Source: Hamadaea flava (GTDB taxonomy: Bacteria > Actinomycetota > Actinomycetes > Mycobacteriales > Micromonosporaceae). Taken from it: 64,000 nt of DNA. The notes under the pieces are model-generated. The model had not been told where the DNA came from. It saw nothing but the letters and a program-made list of their open reading frames with translations, and did no database searches. The stretch spans positions 2,604,001-2,668,000 of the forward strand of contig NZ_JAMZDZ010000001.1 of the NCBI RefSeq assembly GCF_024172085.1, read 5' to 3'. The translations under genes and the position numbers were made by a program. How positions within the stretch are numbered: position 1 is the first letter of the stretch; each line of letters begins with the position of its first letter. This document shows positions 21,764 through 30,014 of this stretch, piece by piece.

Positions 21764-22936
21764 TCAGAGAGCCCGGGCGAGCAGCTCCTTCATGATCTCG
21801 TTCGTACCGCCGTAGATCTTTTGCGCGCGTGCGTCGGCGTACATGCGGGCGATGGGGTACTCGGTCATGTATCCGTATCCGCCGAAGAGCTGCAGACAGC
21901 GGTCGATGACGGTGCACTGCGACTCGGTCAGGTGGAACTTGGCCATCGCGGCGGTGGGCAGGTCGAGGTCCCCCGCGAGGTGCCGCTCGACGCAGTCGTC
22001 GAGGAAGGTTCGCCCGGTGCGTACCAGGGCGGCGCATTCGGCCAGGGTGAAGCGGGTGTTCTGCTGGGCGTACAACGGCTTGCCGAACGCGTGCCGCTCC
22101 TTGGTGTAGGCGGTGGTCAGCGCGAGCGCGCGCTCCATCGCCGCGACCGCGCCGACGGCGATGACCAGGCGTTCCTGCGGCAGCTGCTGCATCATCTGGA
22201 AGAAGCCCTGGCCGGGTACGCCGCCGAGGACGGCGTCGGCGGGCACCCGCAGGTCGTCGAAGAACAGTTCGGCCGTGTCGTTGGCCTGCAGGCCGATCTT
22301 GTGCAGGGTACGGCCGCGCCGGAAACCGGGCGGGTCGTCGCGCAGGTCGCAGACCAGTAGCGAGATGCCGGCGGCGCCCTCGTCGCGGTCGGTCTTGACG
22401 GCGAGCAGAAGCAGATCGGCCAGGCGACCGTTGGTGATGAACGTCTTGGCGCCGTTGACGAGCAATGCGTCGCCGTCAGGCTTGGCCCAGGTACGCATCG
22501 ACTGGAGGTCGGAGCCGCCGGACGGTTCGGTCATGGCGATCGCGCCGACGAGTTCCCCGCTGCACAGCCCGGGCAGGTAGGCGCTCTTCTGCTCGTCGGT
22601 TCCGTACGCGGTCAGGTAGCCGGTGACGATGCCGCTGTGCACGGCCAGCCCCAGGCTGGCGTCTCCGGCGTAGGTCTGCTGCTCGAACAGGACGGTCTCG
22701 TGGCTGAAGTCGCCGCCGCCACCGCCGAAGTCCTCCGGTACGGACAGGCCGAGCAGGCCGAGGGCACCGGCGTGGTGGTAGAGCGCACGGTCGGTGTGCC
22801 CCTGCGCGGCGAACTCGTCTTCGCGAGGCATCACCTCCCGGGTGAAGAACGTGGCTACCGTCTCGGCCAGCGCGTGATGATCGGGGGTACGCCAGCGAGA
22901 CTGGTAGCCGCCGAGCCCTGGAACCGTTGCGGGCAT
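21764..22936 (-). CDS. Acyl-CoA dehydrogenase, long-chain type
   Basis: A 390-aa FAD enzyme oxidising an acyl-CoA to the 2,3-enoyl-CoA. Typical segments are IAMTEPSGGSDLQSMRTWA (FAD/substrate loop), TFITNGRLADLLLLAV, YTKERHAFGKPL and the C-terminal IYGGTNEIMKELLAR. The usual medium-chain catalytic Glu position is Gly (YGGT), so the base is probably the Glu of LPQERL, as in long-chain and isovaleryl-CoA types. GGGAGG precedes the ATG. Its start is 16 nt from the hydrolase stop, and its upstream region carries site D of the shared operator. Confidence 0.92.
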   Translation of the reverse strand: MPATVPGLGGYQSRWRTPDHHALAETVATFFTREVMPREDEFAAQGHTDRALYHHAGALGLLGLSVPEDFGGGGGDFSHETVLFEQQTYAGDASLGLAVHSGIVTGYLTAYGTDEQKSAYLPGLCSGELVGAIAMTEPSGGSDLQSMRTWAKPDGDALLVNGAKTFITNGRLADLLLLAVKTDRDEGAAGISLLVCDLRDDPPGFRRGRTLHKIGLQANDTAELFFDDLRVPADAVLGGVPGQGFFQMMQQLPQERLVIAVGAVAAMERALALTTAYTKERHAFGKPLYAQQNTRFTLAECAALVRTGRTFLDDCVERHLAGDLDLPTAAMAKFHLTESQCTVIDRCLQLFGGYGYMTEYPIARMYADARAQKIYGGTNEIMKELLARAL

Positions 22937-22952
22937 GGGACCTCCCAAAGTC

Positions 22953-23741
22953 TCAACCAGCTTTTCCAGCTGTTGGCAGATTGTCAATAGCGGTCTCGGT
23001 GATCAGCTGCACGCAGCCGTCGGGGTCGTCGCCGAACGGCAGATGACCGCAGCCAGGCAGGCGTACATGACGCGCGGCCGGCAGTGCGGCCGCGGCTCGC
23101 CCGGCCTGGCGTACCGGCAGTATCAGGTCCCGACTCCCCCACACGATCGTGACCGGGATGCCCGCCAGCGCGGCGGGATCGCCGAACCGGTGCTCCGCGA
23201 ACGCCGCCCGGGCCGCCCCGAAGCCGGGCGCCGCCGCCAGCGCGCGAGCGTCGTCGAGTCCGGTCACCGGATCGATCCGGCTCGGCCGTCCGTAGAACAG
23301 TCCGAACAGGACGATCCGGCCCGCCGCCGTCGCCGCGAGCCGTGGCAGCGACGGTCCGAGCACGCGGGCGAGGCGGTGGCCCGTCTCGACCGACGCTTGA
23401 CACCAACGGCGTCCCAGCGGACCCCAGAAACCGATGGGCGCGAACGCCGTCACCGACTGGGCTACGCCGCGCCGACCCAGCTCCAGCGCGACGCCACCGC
23501 CCAGCGAGCTGCCGACGACATGGCAAGGCCGGCCTGCCAGCTCGGCGACGGCATCGGCAAAGGCCGCCACGTCAGCGCCCGTGCCGACCGGCGAGCCGCC
23601 GAACCCGGGCAGGTCAACGGCGAGCACTTCGAAGCGGGCCTCCAGCGCGGGCAGGATGGGGCGCCACAGCTGCCAGGTGCCGCCGATGCCGTGGATCAGG
23701 ACGAGCAGCTCACCCGAGCCGCCGCGGTAATGCGAGAGCAT
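22953..23741 (-). CDS. Alpha/beta hydrolase
   Basis: A 262-aa alpha/beta hydrolase: LLVLIHGIGGTWQLW (oxyanion HG), VVGSSLGGGVALELG (nucleophile Ser) and the C-terminal GCGHLPFGDD catalytic His. In a cluster with a Baeyer-Villiger-type monooxygenase it could hydrolyse the ester or lactone product. No Shine-Dalgarno is seen; a TACCGT box ends 6 nt before the ATG, so the mRNA is probably leaderless, and the shared operator (site A) covers its -35 region. The reading frame stays open far upstream, antisense to the oxidase, but only from 23741 does it look coding. Confidence 0.85.
   Translation of the reverse strand: MLSHYRGGSGELLVLIHGIGGTWQLWRPILPALEARFEVLAVDLPGFGGSPVGTGADVAAFADAVAELAGRPCHVVGSSLGGGVALELGRRGVAQSVTAFAPIGFWGPLGRRWCQASVETGHRLARVLGPSLPRLAATAAGRIVLFGLFYGRPSRIDPVTGLDDARALAAAPGFGAARAAFAEHRFGDPAALAGIPVTIVWGSRDLILPVRQAGRAAAALPAARHVRLPGCGHLPFGDDPDGCVQLITETAIDNLPTAGKAG
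22969..22991. promoter_or_regulatory. Shared operator, site D (acyl-CoA dehydrogenase)
   Basis: Matches site A at 15 of 23 positions (TGTTGGCAG, then GTCAA), inside the 3' end of the hydrolase gene, 33-55 nt upstream of the acyl-CoA dehydrogenase start. On the minus strand it includes a TTGACA -35-like box. Confidence 0.5.
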
Positions 23742-23753
23742 CACGCCACGGTA

Positions 23754-23776
23754 GTTGTTGACAGGCCGACAACAAC
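23754..23776. promoter_or_regulatory. Shared operator, site A (hydrolase/oxidase divergent promoters)
   Basis: Perfect inverted repeat GTTGTTG (23754-23760) and CAACAAC (23770-23776) around ACAGGCCGA. It overlaps the TTGACA -35 box (23758-23763) of the oxidase promoter, whose CACGGT -10 box follows after 17 nt, and the -35 region of the divergent hydrolase promoter. Related sites are at 22969, 26166 and 28358. Confidence 0.72.
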
Positions 23777-23792
23777 AGGGCACGGTTTCGGC

Positions 23793-25520
23793 ATGTCCCC
23801 CGACGGCCGGACCATCGACTCCGAATTCGACTATGACGTGCTCGTCATCGGCTCGGGTTTCGGCGGCAGCGTCAGCGCGCTGCGGTTGACCGAGAAGGGC
23901 TACCGCCTCGGCGTACTGGAGACCGGCCGCCGGTTCGCCGACGCCGACTTCGCCAAGACGTCCTGGCGGCTGCGCGACTACCTGTTCGCCCCGGCGCTGG
24001 GCTGCTACGGCATCCTGCGGATGACCGTGCTCCCGGACGTTCTGGTGATGACGGGCGCGGGCGTCGGCGGCGGATCGCTCGGCTACGCCAACACCCTCTA
24101 CCAGCCGCCGGACGTGTTCTTCACCGACCCGCAGTGGGCGGGCATCACCGACTGGAAGCGCGAGCTGGCACCGTACTACGACCAGGCCACCCGGATGCTC
24201 GGCGTCGCCGCCAATCCGGTGGTGACGCCGTCGGACGAGGTGCTGCGCGCCGTCGCCGACGACATGGGCGTCGGGCACACGTTCCGGTCGACTCCGGTCG
24301 GCGTCCTGTTCGGAGCCGCGCCGGGTCAGCCGGTGCCCGACCCGTACTTCGGCGGGGTCGGGCCGACCCGGACTACTTGCACCTTCTGCGGGTCGTGCAT
24401 GACCGGCTGCCGGGTCGGCGCCAAGAACACCACCGTCAAGAACTACCTTTACCTCGCCGAACAGGCCGGTGCCGAGGTACATCCGCTGACCACGGCGGTG
24501 TCGGTGGCCCCGCTCCCGGCCGGCGGATACGCGGTGCGCACTGTGCGTACCAGTGGCAGATTGCGCAAACGGTCGCGCACCTTCACCGCGGAGCAGGTGA
24601 TCATGGCGGCGGGGGCGCTCGGCACGCAGCGGCTGCTGCACCACATGAAGCGCGCAGGCGCGCTGCCGCACCTGTCCGACCGGCTCGGTGAGCTGAGCCG
24701 TACCAACTCCGAGTCGATCCTCGGCCCGCGGACCCGCCGCGACGATCGGGACTTCAGTCACGGCGTGGCCATCACCTCGTCGTTCCATCCCGACGGTGAC
24801 ACTCATGTCGAGCCGGTGCGCTACGGCCCCGGCAGCAACCTCCTCGGCCTGATGGCGGCGGTGCTGATCGGCGACACCGGCCGGACGCCGCGCTGGCTGG
24901 CCGGACTCGGCAGGACCCTGGCGAGCTGGCGAGACTGGCCCCGGCTGCTGTGGCCGCGCCGCTGGTCGCAGCAGACGATCGTGCTGCTGGCCATGCAACC
25001 CAAGGACAACTCGATCACGGTCCGCGGCAGGCGCGGCCCCTTCGGCGGCCAGCGCCTGACCAGCCGCCCGGGCATCGGCGACCCCGCGCCGTTGTTCATC
25101 CCCGTCGCGCACGAGGTCACCCGCCGTGTCGCCGAGAAGATCGACGGCGTGCCGATCGGGTCGGTCACCGAACTCGCGGGAAGGCCGGTCACCGGCCACT
25201 TCCTCGGCGGCGCCCCCATCGGCGTCGACGCCGCACACGGCGTCGTCGACGCGTACCATCGCGTCTTCGGACACGCTGGCCTGCACATCGTCGACGGCGC
25301 TGTGGTGGCGGCCAACCTCGGGGTCAACCCCTCGCTGACCATCTGCGCGCTGGCGGAGCGGGCGCTGGCGATGTGGCCCAACAAGGGCGAGGCTGACGCG
25401 AGGCCCGCGCTCGGCGATGCCTACCAGCTTGTACGCGCGGTGGCGCCGATCGCGCCGGTGGTGCCCGACGGGGCTCCCGGGCGGCTTCAGCTGCCTGGCC
25501 ACGGTGCCGCTACGTCATAA
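23793..25520 (+). CDS. GMC-type FAD oxidoreductase (cholesterol-oxidase/ChoD-like)
   Basis: A 575-aa flavoprotein. VLVIGSGFGGSVSALRL (residues 16-32) binds the FAD ADP moiety; GAGVGGGSLGYANTLYQ is the GMC/cholesterol-oxidase signature; FLGGAPIGVDAAHGVVDAYH and NPSLTICALAERAL form the C-terminal FAD-binding part. Cys 196, 199, 202 and 206 form a CxxCxxCxxxC group, seen in ChoD-like relatives. The enzyme should oxidise a sterol or other secondary alcohol to a ketone, feeding the monooxygenase at 26205. No Shine-Dalgarno; the ATG is 6 nt from a -10-like CACGGT. Its stop is 9 nt from the TetR start. Confidence 0.88.
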   Translation: MSPDGRTIDSEFDYDVLVIGSGFGGSVSALRLTEKGYRLGVLETGRRFADADFAKTSWRLRDYLFAPALGCYGILRMTVLPDVLVMTGAGVGGGSLGYANTLYQPPDVFFTDPQWAGITDWKRELAPYYDQATRMLGVAANPVVTPSDEVLRAVADDMGVGHTFRSTPVGVLFGAAPGQPVPDPYFGGVGPTRTTCTFCGSCMTGCRVGAKNTTVKNYLYLAEQAGAEVHPLTTAVSVAPLPAGGYAVRTVRTSGRLRKRSRTFTAEQVIMAAGALGTQRLLHHMKRAGALPHLSDRLGELSRTNSESILGPRTRRDDRDFSHGVAITSSFHPDGDTHVEPVRYGPGSNLLGLMAAVLIGDTGRTPRWLAGLGRTLASWRDWPRLLWPRRWSQQTIVLLAMQPKDNSITVRGRRGPFGGQRLTSRPGIGDPAPLFIPVAHEVTRRVAEKIDGVPIGSVTELAGRPVTGHFLGGAPIGVDAAHGVVDAYHRVFGHAGLHIVDGAVVAANLGVNPSLTICALAERALAMWPNKGEADARPALGDAYQLVRAVAPIAPVVPDGAPGRLQLPGHGAATS

Positions 25521-25529
25521 TGGCTGATT

Positions 25530-26153
25530 GTGTCTGCCAGAAACACCGCGACCGCCCATGATGTGATGCCGCGTGGCCGCCGGCTGGAGCCCGACGCGCG
25601 GCGCGAACAGATCCTGGCCTGCGCGGTGCGGCTGTTCGGCGAGCGCCCGTACGCCGAGGTCAGCACGACCGACATCGGCAACGCCGCGGGCGTGGCCCGC
25701 GGCCTGATCAACCACTACTTCGGCACCAAGAAGGGCCTGTACCTGGAGTCGGTGCGGGTGCTGGTGACGATCCCGGCCGTCGCGGTCGAGCAGCTCCCGC
25801 AGGGCGATCTGGCGACCCGGGTGGACGCCAGCGTGGCCTGGTTCCTCGACGTGGTGTCGCGGCACAGCCGATCATGGCTGGCGGCGGTCGACGGCGGCGG
25901 GGTCGGCCGGGACCCCGACGTCGAGCGGGTGCTGGCCGAGGCGGACGAGGTCGCCGTCGACAGCATCCTGGTAGCGGTCGGGCTGGCGGAGTCGACCCGG
26001 ACCGAGGTGCGGGCCATGGTCCGGGCGTACTGCGGACTCGCCAAGGCGACGGCGCGCGAGTGGCTGGAGCGGGGCGCGCTCGATCGCAAGCAGGCGCACC
26101 GGCTGCTCGGCACGACATTGATCGCACTAGTGGAGCAGGTCATCCCGCGCTAG
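25530..26153 (+). CDS. TetR-family regulator of the oxidation cluster
   Basis: A 207-aa TetR protein; HTH near residues 20-66 (REQILACAVRLFGERPYAEV, TDIGNAAGVARGLINHYFG, TKKGLYLESV). It starts with GTG 9 nt after the oxidase stop, so the two are co-transcribed. The N-terminal HTH and central location make it the likely reader of the four matching operator sites at 22969, 23754, 26166 and 28358, and thus autoregulated through site A. Confidence 0.9.
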   Translation: MSARNTATAHDVMPRGRRLEPDARREQILACAVRLFGERPYAEVSTTDIGNAAGVARGLINHYFGTKKGLYLESVRVLVTIPAVAVEQLPQGDLATRVDASVAWFLDVVSRHSRSWLAAVDGGGVGRDPDVERVLAEADEVAVDSILVAVGLAESTRTEVRAMVRAYCGLAKATAREWLERGALDRKQAHRLLGTTLIALVEQVIPR

Positions 26154-26165
26154 TCGGCCCACGAC

Positions 26166-26188
26166 CCTATTGGCAGGCCGTCAACAAG
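26166..26188. promoter_or_regulatory. Shared operator, site B (monooxygenase)
   Basis: Matches site A at 17 of 23 positions (TTGGCAGGCCGTCAACAA core). TTGGCA at 26170-26175 can be the -35 box, with TACGGT at 26192-26197 as the -10 box and GTG at 26205 only 7 nt later, which implies a leaderless mRNA repressed at its -35. Confidence 0.65.
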
Positions 26189-26204
26189 TTGATACGGTCC
26201 GGCC

Positions 26205-27671
26205 GTGACACGGGTTGCCATCATCGGGGCCGGCTTCGGCGGCATCGCCGCGGCACACCTGCTGCGCCAGGCCGGGTTCACGGACCTGACCGTCTTCGAC
26301 CGGGGCGACGACGTCGGCGGGGTGTGGCGCGACAACACCTATCCCGGGTGCGCCTGCGACATTCCGGCACCGCTGTACTCGTACTCGTTCGCCGTCAATC
26401 CAGATTGGACCCAGCGCTTCCCGCCGCAGTCCGAGATCCTCGCTTACCTGCGGCGATGCGTACGCGACTTCGGGCTGACGCCGCATCTGCGGCTCGGCCA
26501 GACGATCACCGACGCGGTGTGGACCGGAACGAGCTGGCGGCTCACCGGGGCCGACGGTCGCACCGAGGAGTTCGACGTCCTCATCCCGGCCCTGGGCCAG
26601 TTGTCGGAACCGATCGTGCCGAGGCTCGAAGGCGCGGCCGACTTCGACGGGCAGGCGGTGCACACGGCCCAATGGAGCCCGGCGGTGGCGGTAGCCGGGC
26701 GACGGGTCGGCGTGATCGGAACCGGGGCCAGCGCGATCCAGCTGGTGCCTGCGATCGCCGATGCTGCGGCGAGCGTGGTCGTATTCCAGCGCTCCGCTCC
26801 GTGGACGCTGCCGAAACCCAACCGCCGCTATGGCCGGGTACGCCGGGCGCTGAACCGTCGGCTGCCCGGACTGATGCGCGCATCGCGGGCGGGCACCTGG
26901 CTGCTGACGGTCGTCACCGGCAAGGCCGTCACCGGCAACCCGCTCGCCCGGTACGCGGTGGGAGCAGTCTCGCGTACGCAGCGGTTCGTCCAGGCGCGAC
27001 AGTTGGGTAGCCAGGTCAGGCCCGACTACGCGATGGGCTGCAAACGAGTGCTGTTCACCGGCGACTGGTTCCGCACCCTGCGCCGCCCCGATGTGCGGCT
27101 GGTCACCGTAGGGATCGAACGGCTGACGGCGACCGGCGTACGCACCACCGACGGCGTCGATCATCCGCTCGACCTGCTGGTCTACGGGACCGGCTTCGCC
27201 GCGACGGAGTTCCTGGCGTCGCTGCGGGTGTACGGGCGCGACGGGCGATATTTGGCCGACGAGTGGCGTGCGGGTGCGTACGCCCACCTCGGCATCGCGG
27301 TTCCCGGATTTCCCAACCTGTTCCTGATGTACGGGCCCAACACCAACACCGGCAACACGTCGGTCGTGTACTTCCACGAAGCGCAGGCGCGTTACATCGT
27401 CCAAGCGGTACGGGCAGTGGACGCGTCCGGTCCACTAGAGGTACGCGACGAGGTCGCGACGGCGTTCGACGCGGAGATGCAGAGCCGGCTGACCGGCAGT
27501 ATCTGGTCAGGCTGCGAGAGCTGGTATCGCACCGGCACGGGCCGCATCGTCACCAACTGGCCCGGTTCGGCAGCCGAGTACCGCTCCCGTACCCGCCGCT
27601 TCCGCTCCGCCGACTACACATCGCTGGAGCCGGCCCCGGTCGCAACAGCACCGTCACCGGCGCGAACCTGA
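26205..27671 (+). CDS. Baeyer-Villiger-type class B flavin monooxygenase
   Basis: A 488-aa FAD/NADPH monooxygenase. IGAGFGG (7-13) and GVIGTGASA (169-177) are the two Rossmann motifs; between them FDGQAVHTAQW (147-157) fits the Baeyer-Villiger fingerprint FxGxxxHxxxW. GGVWRDNTYPGCACDIPAPL near residues 38-57 is also typical. It should insert oxygen next to a ketone carbonyl to give an ester or lactone. It is preceded by operator site B and starts 51 nt after the TetR stop. It converges on the decarboxylase-like gene. Confidence 0.9.
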   Translation: MTRVAIIGAGFGGIAAAHLLRQAGFTDLTVFDRGDDVGGVWRDNTYPGCACDIPAPLYSYSFAVNPDWTQRFPPQSEILAYLRRCVRDFGLTPHLRLGQTITDAVWTGTSWRLTGADGRTEEFDVLIPALGQLSEPIVPRLEGAADFDGQAVHTAQWSPAVAVAGRRVGVIGTGASAIQLVPAIADAAASVVVFQRSAPWTLPKPNRRYGRVRRALNRRLPGLMRASRAGTWLLTVVTGKAVTGNPLARYAVGAVSRTQRFVQARQLGSQVRPDYAMGCKRVLFTGDWFRTLRRPDVRLVTVGIERLTATGVRTTDGVDHPLDLLVYGTGFAATEFLASLRVYGRDGRYLADEWRAGAYAHLGIAVPGFPNLFLMYGPNTNTGNTSVVYFHEAQARYIVQAVRAVDASGPLEVRDEVATAFDAEMQSRLTGSIWSGCESWYRTGTGRIVTNWPGSAAEYRSRTRRFRSADYTSLEPAPVATAPSPART

Positions 27672-27687
27672 GCACCAGCCCCGGCGC

Positions 27688-28314
27688 CTATTCGGCCGCG
27701 AGCCGTTCTGATCCGAAGAGCATCCGAAAATCCGCGGCGGTCACGGCGAGCAGCGGTCGGCGTCCGGCCAGAAAGCCCAGCGGTCCATCGGCAGCGAGCT
27801 GCCAGGTGAGGTGGGCCGGGCCGCAGCGGGCGCGGGCGCGTACCGGCGTGGTCAACGCACGCCCGGCCAGCGCCTGAGTCACCTTGAACCCGATGGGCAG
27901 CCGCAGCGCCAGGCGTGATCGCCGGATCGTCCCGATGGCGATCGCGTGCCCGGCGACGACGGCCGCGGCATCGGTCTCGGTCAGCTCGAATTCGGCCAGC
28001 TCCTTGGGGATGCCCCACAACTCGCGGCCGCCGTCGCGCGAATCAGCGCTGTCGACCCAGATGTGGGTGATCGTGACACGGGGCCGCAGCCCCGCCCGCA
28101 TCAGCACCGCACTCAGCAGCTCGCGATAGGCCATGTCCCCGCCGGACCGGTAGTCCACCCACGCGGTGCCGACCAGCGCGTACCGTCCGATGCGGACCAG
28201 CCGCACGGCGGCGGTCACCTCCGGCGGGATCGACGGCAGATCCGCGACCGGCACGAGCCACACCGAGACGTGCAGCTGGCCGCGAAGCGACCACGGTTGC
28301 GGTGGATACGCCAT
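27688..28314 (-). CDS. Acetoacetate-decarboxylase-family protein
   Basis: A 208-aa ADC-fold protein. The segment WGIPKELAEFEL places a Lys in the position of the Schiff-base Lys of acetoacetate decarboxylase; ELLSAVLMRAGLRPRVTIT and VDSADSRDGGRELWG are also family-like. It could decarboxylate or act as aldolase/dehydratase on a keto acid. GGAGGGAGGCGGG precedes the ATG at 28314. Operator site C lies 44-66 nt upstream, which ties it to the same regulon as the monooxygenase, with which it converges. Confidence 0.8.
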   Translation of the reverse strand: MAYPPQPWSLRGQLHVSVWLVPVADLPSIPPEVTAAVRLVRIGRYALVGTAWVDYRSGGDMAYRELLSAVLMRAGLRPRVTITHIWVDSADSRDGGRELWGIPKELAEFELTETDAAAVVAGHAIAIGTIRRSRLALRLPIGFKVTQALAGRALTTPVRARARCGPAHLTWQLAADGPLGFLAGRRPLLAVTAADFRMLFGSERLAAE

Positions 28315-28357
28315 CCCGCCTCCCTCCGCTGTGCTCGGCCGAGGTGGGCACTCTATC

Positions 28358-28380
28358 GCTCTTGACCGCCTGCCAACAAC
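28358..28380. promoter_or_regulatory. Shared operator, site C (decarboxylase-like gene)
   Basis: On the minus strand it matches site A at 18 of 23 positions (GTTGTTGGCAGGCGG, then TCAA). It contains TTGGCA (28376-28371) as a -35 box, with TAGAGT at 28355-28350 as a possible -10 box. Confidence 0.62.
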
Positions 28381-28727: not shown

Positions 28728-30014
28728 TCAGTAGAGCAGGAACGGCTGACGCTGCCGCTCGAACCCCGTCAGCTCGTCCGACCAGGCGCCGACCACGTCG
28801 TCCACGTCCGCGCCCGCGTCGATCATCGTGCGCAGCCGGGTTGAGCCGGTGAGCTTGTCGACCCAGTACGGGCGGACGGGATCGTAGGAGTCGTAGCGCC
28901 AGGCGAACGCCGGATACTTGCGCGCTTCCACGAGCATCGCCACGGCGGTGCGGATCGGGTCGTACGCGGCCCGGTCGACGACCTTGACCTCCACGCCGGC
29001 GCAGAGCTGGTTGAGCATCGGCGGGTGCTGACCGGCGATCGTCGGGACGAAGTACGCCTCCCGGAATCGCACGCCCGGCAGTTCGCGGGCGTTGAGCCGG
29101 TCGGACCAGTGGTAGTCGAAGTCGGTCGCCAGGCCGCCGATCAGCTCGAACGGGCGCGCAGTGCCACGACCCTCGCTGATGGACGAGACGCCTTCGAACA
29201 GGCCGGTGCCCGGGTACACCAGGGCGGTGTCGGGGGTGGGCATGTTGGGGCTGGGCATGACCCAGGGGAGGTCCAGGTCCGCGGCGAACATCGTGCGCTT
29301 CCAGTGCCGCAGGGCCACCACTTCGAGGTCGACCGACCGGCCCGCCTCGGCCGGCAGGAACACGGCGTTGAAGTAGCGGGCGAGCTCGCCGACGGTCATG
29401 CCGTGCTGCTGCACGATCTCCTTCAGACCGACGCCCGAGGTGTACGGCGCCGTCATCAGCGGGCCGTACGCCTTGCCGCCGATCGGATTGGGCCGGTCGA
29501 GGACGACGTAGCGCAGGCCCAGCCGGGCCGCCACGACCATCGACGTGTACATCGTCCAGATGTAGGTGTAGAAGCGGACTCCCACGTCCTGGATGTCGAA
29601 GACAAGGGTGTCCACGTTGGCCGAAGTGAGCATCTGCGCCCACTTGGCCTGCGAGGCACCGTAGGCGTCATACACGGTGATGCCGGTACGTGCGTCGATC
29701 CCGGTCCCCTCGCTGCCACCGGCCTGAGCCGAGCCGCGGAAGCCGTGCTCGGGCCCGAACGCGGCGAGGTGGCTCACGGAGCCGGATTCGTGGATGAGAT
29801 CGACGAGATGGCGATAGTCGGAGTCGACGCCCGTCGGGTTGGACAGCACGCCCACCCTCCGGCCGGCGAGGGTCGCGAAGTCATCCGCGACCAGGCGGTC
29901 AAGCCCAGTGTCGACGCGGCGGGCCGGCGGCGCGGCGGCGGCTGGTGCGGCCGACGTCATCGCCGCGCCCAGGGCGCCTGCGGCACCGGTGGCGAGAAGA
30001 GTTCTGCGCTGCAA
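28728..30014 (-). CDS. NamZ-like exo-beta-N-acetylmuramidase (DUF1343), exported
   Basis: A 428-aa DUF1343 protein. The N-terminus MQRRTLLATGAAGALGAAM followed by AAPAAAA is a Tat-like signal peptide. The domain has VGVLSNPTGVDSDYRHLVDL, AFGPEHGFRGSAQAG, FDIQDVGVRFYTYIWTM, then DRPNPIGG and SEGRGTARPFELIG, all hallmarks of the NamZ family, which removes terminal MurNAc from peptidoglycan fragments in muropeptide recovery. Monocistronic; its 3' end is separated from the small gene by the hairpin at 28654. Confidence 0.9.
   Translation of the reverse strand: MQRRTLLATGAAGALGAAMTSAAPAAAAPPARRVDTGLDRLVADDFATLAGRRVGVLSNPTGVDSDYRHLVDLIHESGSVSHLAAFGPEHGFRGSAQAGGSEGTGIDARTGITVYDAYGASQAKWAQMLTSANVDTLVFDIQDVGVRFYTYIWTMYTSMVVAARLGLRYVVLDRPNPIGGKAYGPLMTAPYTSGVGLKEIVQQHGMTVGELARYFNAVFLPAEAGRSVDLEVVALRHWKRTMFAADLDLPWVMPSPNMPTPDTALVYPGTGLFEGVSSISEGRGTARPFELIGGLATDFDYHWSDRLNARELPGVRFREAYFVPTIAGQHPPMLNQLCAGVEVKVVDRAAYDPIRTAVAMLVEARKYPAFAWRYDSYDPVRPYWVDKLTGSTRLRTMIDAGADVDDVVGAWSDELTGFERQRQPFLLY

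Follow-up and report, generated by a model that had tools for sequence, protein, structure and literature searches.

TetR-family regulators that resemble the one reported here are known from lipid metabolism and from other settings. In mycobacteria, FdmR is said to repress fatty acid catabolism and to respond to long-chain acyl-CoA, FasR acts on lipid synthesis, and EthR sits beside EthA. MftR, as described in the available part of its source (PMC8728441), is a TetR regulator with the palindrome T-N2-GGCA-N5-TGCC-N2-A and with long-chain acyl-CoA effectors. On the enzymatic side, the available part of a report on Thalassolituus oleivorans outlines a subterminal oxidation of alkanes and ketones that proceeds through a secondary alcohol, a ketone, an ester formed by a Baeyer-Villiger monooxygenase (BVMO) and an esterase to a fatty acid (PMC6304351). 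Here, we analyzed a 64-kb stretch of the Hamadaea flava genome (hereafter the window) that holds a six-gene cluster around positions 21764-28380. An acyl-CoA dehydrogenase (ACAD) and an alpha/beta hydrolase (HYD) are encoded on the minus strand, a GMC oxidoreductase, a TetR regulator and a BVMO on the plus strand, and an acetoacetate decarboxylase (ADC)-like protein again on the minus strand. Sequence comparisons make it very likely that the TetR protein is a repressor of acyl-CoA and lipid catabolism acting through a dyad at four sites, and that it here also controls a ketone-to-ester module. A four-site TetR regulon had been proposed in a sequence-only reading of this DNA, and the proposal gained strong support: the site is conserved across genera, stays on unlinked gene copies, is absent from paralogues, and was not found as an intact dyad where the regulator is missing.

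A 23-bp dyad overlaps promoter-like boxes of the cluster

Four 23-mers were located at positions 22969, 23754, 26166 and 28358, as had been noted before. Compared with the copy at 23754, those at 26166, 28358 and 22969 have 17, 18 and 15 of 23 matches by hand count, the value of 18 being that of the reverse complement of the 28358 copy. The 23754 copy had been called perfectly palindromic, which applies to its 7-bp arms and not to its 9-bp centre, ACAGGCCGA, which is no palindrome. Each copy does lie upstream of a cluster gene, and that at 23754 is placed between the divergent HYD and GMC genes. The predicted operator is a 23-bp dyad with a consensus of about SYTRTTGRCANNNTGYCAAYARS. Its core TTGNCNNNNNGNCAA (TTGNCN5GNCAA) has exactly four matches in the window, always at these sites (shuffle mean 0.39; none of 100 shuffles reached four), and the 19-mer TNTTGDCVNNNBGHCAANA, a pattern written after inspection of the four sites, also has four matches against a shuffle mean of 0.00. 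Whole-genome pattern counts were taken over the single 8.86-Mb contig of the source genome, where the 19-mer matched five times, four of them in this cluster, and its reversed control did not match at all. Random spread of the motif across the genome, which the sequence-only reading had named as a refutation, was therefore not seen with the 19-mer. The arms by themselves are unspecific, since an arms-only pattern with up to three mismatches hit 73 places in the genome against 159 for its reversed control.

The fifth 19-mer match (C1:5472091-5472109, L161) is a palindrome, TCTTGACACSGTGTCAAGA, that is also found in two other genomes, G002 and G003. We rejected it as a member of the regulon because both of these genomes share the palindrome without having a TetR match at E<=1e-30 and because the adjoining open reading frames (ORFs) look unrelated by eye. 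It is probably the site of another regulator.

Further examination of promoter boxes qualified the view that every copy overlaps a TTGrCA -35 hexamer. TTGACA or TTGGCA is indeed present for ACAD, GMC, BVMO and ADC, but the HYD direction has only TTGTCG, with no clear -10 box. Downstream of the operator TTGnCn, an nAnnnT -10-like box follows in the 58 distinct ACAD sites with a spacer of 17 bp in 48 cases and 18 bp in eight. Among 13 GMC sites the -10-like box stands at spacer 17 in six and at 18 in seven, all 10 distinct BVMO sites have TAnnnT at spacer 17, and all five ADC sites have TAnnnT at spacer 15. For HYD, 11 of 12 sites have no -10-like box at spacers 14-20. Six bases separate the -10 hexamer from the ATG or GTG of the GMC and BVMO genes in the window, a spacing typical of leaderless transcripts, with which these two promoters would be consistent. 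The ACAD operator (22969-22991) falls within the last HYD codons, translated AIDNLPTA, and sites at the same place overlap the HYD match in Catellatospora and Hamadaea tsunoensis.

The site is conserved across genera

The nearest clusters were found in Catellatospora and H. tsunoensis. Seventy related loci were retrieved, and 69 of them (L072-L140, 1,283,489 bases) were scanned, L141 being left out as a weak, partial and featureless match. The core occurred 104 times in these loci. On a scoring matrix trained on these same sites, 101 occurrences reached at least 18 and three scored 9.1 or less, and 94 of the 101 high-scoring sites precede an ACAD, HYD, GMC, BVMO, ADC or TetR gene. When counted by gene start (one HYD and one ADC gene with the start cut off were excluded), a site is present at 59/59 ACAD, 14/14 GMC, 12/16 HYD, 11/19 BVMO and 5/7 ADC starts. 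The comparison of orthologous clusters, which had been suggested as a check, thus finds the motif conserved across genera.

Moreover, the site accompanies genes that lie apart from the regulator. In three genomes of the Actinoplanes type (G080, G082 and G099, genus g40), the GMC-BVMO-HYD module is megabases away from the TetR and ACAD genes, and the palindrome is kept between GMC and HYD. The BVMO gene of H. tsunoensis, about 5 kb from the TetR gene, retains its own site. Two Dactylosporangium loci (L075 and L078) gave no GMC match; there the site stands immediately before tetR, with the BVMO gene behind.

The regulator-operator association extends to distant relatives. A survey of the class (394 genomes) gave TetR matches at E<=1e-30 in 33, including the source genome and G006 of the same family. 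From the other 31 genomes, 15 loci were taken, of which 13 carry a site with a score of about 18 or higher. In 12 distant genomes (11 among the 15 sampled loci, plus G556), the 19-mer matched 22 times, and 17 of these matches, covering 11 of the 12 genomes, lie within 5 kb of a TetR orthologue; reversed controls gave four matches in total. Genes for ACAD, thiolase, FadB-like and acyl-CoA-synthetase-like proteins are among the neighbours in the 15 distant stretches.

Some additional arrangements were observed. H. tsunoensis has an extra site (L165:5077-5099) upstream of a gene whose protein product begins with a signal-peptide-like segment. Proteins with 75-78% identity to this product are encoded next to a site in four loci (L072, L075, L076 and L078), in three of which the gene is divergent from ADC; all Pfam alpha/beta hydrolase matches of the H. 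tsunoensis protein are below cut-off. In Smaragdicoccus and a Nocardiaceae metagenome-assembled genome (L139:863-916 and L140:864-917), two operators 31 bp apart precede ACAD, and each locus has two TetR paralogues.

Paralogues and genomes without the regulator serve as natural controls

We examined 70 GMC loci of the family, which fall into 53 regulon-type loci with 66-100% identity and 17 paralogues with 59-63%; the dividing line of 65.5% was set after the gap was seen. The 53 regulon-type loci represent 53 of 56 such genomes, with the loci of G057, G071 and G102 left out. A site is present on 51 of the 53 regulon-type genes and on none of the 17 paralogues. The two regulon-type genes without a site are those of G075 and G104, which alone among the 56 genomes have no TetR match at E<=1e-30; each keeps TTGACA in a dyad that is not intact. 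A survey of 354 genomes placed TetR and ACAD together in 101, TetR only in nine, ACAD only in eight and neither in 236 (Fisher p 3e-67, uncorrected for kinship); of the TetR-only genomes, at least G049 does have an ACAD gene, which was below the search threshold (seen as L097). No intact dyad was found in the eight ACAD-only genomes, where the best scores at ACAD starts range from -19.2 to 10.9. Seven of them (69.7-73.4% ACAD identity) retain the TTGACA or TTGACT half while the distal half is degraded, and in the eighth, G043 (59% ACAD identity), neither half is visible. Altogether, nine of 10 loci without TetR (two GMC and eight ACAD) retain the -35 half. Genomes that keep the promoter without the regulator offer a natural control for the decay of an operator from a -35 box, or for its build-up on one.

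These controls also bear on a simpler explanation, namely that the motif is conserved promoter sequence, a -35 box with its flanks, and no operator. One half of the dyad does contain the -35 hexamer. However, the half distal to it is conserved with TetR and degraded without TetR while the -35 box stays, the promoters of paralogous GMC genes are without the dyad, and the dyad also adjoins distant tetR genes, which leaves this explanation highly improbable. At the level of sequence, the comparisons establish the dyad, its overlap with promoter-like boxes and its coupling to this TetR and these genes.

Enzymes of the cluster and a link to beta-oxidation

The previously assigned enzyme labels (GMC, BVMO, hydrolase, ACAD and ADC-like) hold with some refinements, and all features are listed in Table 1.

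Table 1. Predicted genes and operator sites of the cluster, in window coordinates
Feature	Position	Strand	Evidence and remarks
Acyl-CoA dehydrogenase, closest to long-chain type, 390 aa	21764..22936	-	PF02771/PF02770/PF00441; best solved relative mitochondrial long-chain acyl-CoA dehydrogenase 8w0t, 350 bits
Alpha/beta hydrolase, 262 aa	22953..23741	-	PF12697 91.2 bits; GxSxG (GSSLG) at residue 77; start possibly slightly upstream
ACAD operator (predicted), inside 3' end of HYD ORF	22969..22991	-	-35 TTGACA 22982-22987; -10-like AAAGCT 22959-22964; orthologous site at 59/59 ACAD starts
HYD/GMC operator (predicted), between divergent genes	23754..23776	.	14/14 GMC starts in related loci; 51/53 regulon-type GMC
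GMC-side promoter boxes in the 23754 operator	-35 23758-23763; -10 23781-23786		-35 TTGACA; 17-bp spacer; CACGGT; 6 bases to ATG
GMC oxidoreductase, cholesterol-oxidase-like, 575 aa, CxxCxxCxxxC	23793..25520	+	NF058674 550 bits (cut-off 850); PF05199/PF00732; 1coy 81.6 bits
TetR-family regulator, 207 aa	25530..26153	+	PF00440 51.7 bits; PF21943 37.3 bits; model pLDDT 87; nearest folds 2qib and FasR
BVMO operator (predicted)	26166..26188	+	-35 TTGGCA 26170-26175; 17-bp spacer; -10 TACGGT 26193-26198; 6 bases to GTG
Type I Baeyer-Villiger monooxygenase, 488 aa	26205..27671	+	Fingerprints FDGQAVHTAQW and GGVWRDNTYPGCACD; relatives cyclohexanone/steroid monooxygenases 7v8o, 4ap3
Acetoacetate-decarboxylase-superfamily protein, 208 aa, invariant WGIPK	27688..28314	-	PF06314 44.4 bits (cut-off 29.8); alignment; fold matches
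Operator (predicted) upstream of ADC-like gene	28358..28380	-	5/7 ADC starts in related loci have a site

By sequence, the ACAD is of the long-chain type, with ACAD domains and a long-chain acyl-CoA dehydrogenase as closest solved relative. On the same strand and within 6 kb behind ACAD, 43 of the 59 ACAD loci have thiolase and FadB-like genes and 46 have a CoA-transferase III gene; a single locus, in which the sequence behind ACAD is short, lacks them all. Among representatives, the thiolase scored 697 bits against PRK08242 (cut-off 514) and the CoA-transferase 291 bits against CoA_transf_3, and the FadB-like protein contains enoyl-CoA hydratase and 3-hydroxyacyl-CoA dehydrogenase domains. 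Given these neighbours, the regulon appears to have beta-oxidation at its core, to which the GMC, BVMO, hydrolase and ADC-like set would be an accessory module. In H. tsunoensis, unlike the source genome, FadA and FadB homologues follow ACAD.

The GMC protein keeps the HxxGG and NPSLT motifs and was rejected as a cholesterol oxidase proper (550.2 bits on NF058674). A CxxCxxCxxxC motif (CTFCGSCMTGC, 24378-24410), which may be an iron-sulfur site, is present in all 53 regulon-type and all 17 paralogous GMC proteins. Type I BVMOs carry the fingerprints FxGxxxHxxxW and [AG]GxWxxxx[FY]P[GM]xxxD; both are found here and are kept in 19/19 orthologues of the related loci, and the GxSxG of HYD is kept in 13/13. 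The ADC-like protein belongs to the ADC superfamily according to both its PF06314 match and its predicted fold. The 24 matches of this fold with E<=0.001 all fall in the superfamily and comprise ADCs, MppR, an aldolase-dehydratase and Swit_4259. True acetoacetate decarboxylases have adjacent active-site lysines after a proline (PKK). The lysine of WGIPK is invariant, but PK is followed by D or E in 9/9 sequences, without the second lysine, and the protein was therefore rejected as an acetoacetate decarboxylase proper.

The TetR assignment rests on the TetR_N helix-turn-helix and on an all-helical predicted fold. Among the fold matches of the model, at 14-22% identity, are FasR with C20-CoA, KstR with a CoA ester derived from cholesterol, and the FadR of Thermus with lauroyl-CoA. 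They hint weakly at an acyl-CoA-type ligand, because unrelated TetR folds score similarly.

The presence of KstR among these matches raises the question of a sterol regulon, in which the GMC protein would start sterol or steroid breakdown, the BVMO and the hydrolase would open a ring or side chain, and the TetR would be KstR-like. The GMC protein reaches 550 bits on NF058674 and has cholesterol oxidases as its best solved relatives, a steroid monooxygenase is among the best BVMO relatives, and the CoA-transferase-III proteins behind ACAD in 46/59 relatives fall in a family that presumably includes alpha-methylacyl-CoA racemase. On the other hand, the GMC score of 550 bits remains below the cholesterol oxidase cut-off of 850, and the ACAD is nearest to the long-chain fatty type. 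HsaD, the sole sterol marker searched, gave nothing over cut-off in the whole genome, and likewise nothing in 14 control genomes, so that this negative, from one marker without a positive control, only weakens the idea. Taken together, we regard a sterol regulon as quite unlikely.

A role in detoxification or natural-product tailoring, with the BVMO and GMC protein modifying a terpenoid or polyketide and the TetR sensing the product, also appears unlikely, if slightly less so. The BVMO does match the pentalenolactone D synthase model, though its 171 bits fall far short of the 1100-bit cut-off, and EthR is among the weak TetR matches. No biosynthetic core enzyme was present among the nine window proteins scanned, and the most constant partner of the system is ACAD with thiolase and FadB genes.

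The NamZ-type exo-beta-N-acetylmuramidase gene that adjoins the cluster (28728-30014) is apparently unrelated.

Proposed mechanism and its weight

Returning to a lipid-responsive repressor, we infer a model of protein-DNA contact, repression, ligand, reaction order and substrate as follows. The TetR protein (25530-26153) would bind the 23-bp dyad at four places. The dyad holds the -35 box of the ACAD, GMC and BVMO promoters and TTGGCA upstream of the ADC-like gene, so bound TetR would cover the -35 and block RNA polymerase. tetR starts 9 bp past the GMC stop codon, which makes co-transcription plausible, and a repressor gene this close behind GMC would also control its own expression. An acyl-CoA or a related lipid intermediate would probably release TetR, and the derepressed enzymes would then degrade a lipid-like substrate. 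In this scheme, the GMC protein would convert a secondary alcohol to a ketone, the BVMO the ketone to an ester, and the hydrolase the ester to an alcohol and an acid. The acid would enter beta-oxidation via ACAD, whose gene is followed in most relatives by those for thiolase and FadB, and often by one for a CoA-transferase. That the steps from alcohol through ketone and ester to acid take place on one substrate, in this order, is our reading of the gene set.

A possible, still doubtful extension is an undescribed pathway for long-chain lipids that bear a secondary alcohol or ketone, such as plant-wax ketones or fatty acids with a mid-chain hydroxy group. In this pathway, a GMC dehydrogenase with a possible iron-sulfur cluster, the BVMO, the hydrolase and the ADC-superfamily enzyme would feed beta-oxidation, and one lipid-sensing TetR would govern all genes through an operator conserved across much of the class.

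A number of observations weigh against the proposed regulon, or limit it. Seven of the 101 high-scoring sites precede other genes (L076, L077, L083, L093, L095, L109 and L134), that of L093 lying before an AMP-binding enzyme gene with BVMO behind it. Related clusters without the motif had been named as a refutation, and some HYD, BVMO and ADC genes do lack a site of their own, but motif-less GMC and ACAD genes occur only in genomes without a TetR match. For several site-less BVMO genes, a gene upstream in the same run carries the site, and for two ADC genes no explanation was found. Among distant relatives, two of the 15 TetR loci (L173 and L177) have no site in the examined stretch and five of the 22 19-mer matches are far from any TetR orthologue, while G006 has the TetR and one looser site, yet no 19-mer match. 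The ACAD protein tree groups the seven TetR-less Micromonospora-type rows, which are therefore not seven independent events and correspond to one to three changes; the tree fits loss of the dyad as well as its absence before a gain. With its Cys motif, the GMC protein may be a dehydrogenase that passes electrons on, not an oxidase. Finally, the best FadA and FadB homologues of the source genome are unlinked to the cluster and were rejected as members, with no match scoring at least 6 in the surrounding 18 kb (L219, C1:2928000-2946000). Beta-oxidation would therefore be only partly in the regulon in this species.

From sequence, the regulator-operator pair is recognizable in several families within one bacterial class. 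It would link unassigned genes of the GMC, BVMO, hydrolase and ADC-like types to a single physiological signal.

Comparison with known systems

On curated models, the regulator was rejected as MftR (28.7 bits, TIGR03968 cut-off 224.9) and as FasR (53.8 bits, NF053731 cut-off 330; 21-22% identity). FasR of Mycobacterium tuberculosis, an acyl-CoA-binding TetR, is nonetheless the top-scoring curated TetR model and is among the nearest folds; it is named an activator and acts on synthesis, whereas the gene set here is catabolic. FdmR appears functionally close, and it is not known to have a BVMO/GMC module. EthR and EthA likewise pair a TetR regulator with a BVMO; the EthR match is about 33 bits, mainly in the DNA-binding part, and that system is not known to have a GMC, ADC or ACAD set.

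In the open-access literature, a search that mostly excludes subscription journals, we found no description of this regulon, nor of the accessory oxidation module suggested by its genes. MftR is similar in being a TetR with a palindrome of GGCA/TGCC half-sites, but its motif, as given in the available part of the source, has a 5-base centre compared with 3 in this operator (PMC8728441). The order of reactions in T. oleivorans is the same as that suggested here from genes alone, except that the enzyme suggested there for the first step is an alcohol dehydrogenase and that the available part of the report mentions no operator shared through a TetR (PMC6304351). The conserved switch proposed here, apparently not reported before, belongs to a type of regulon, TetR-controlled lipid catabolism, that is already known as a kind.

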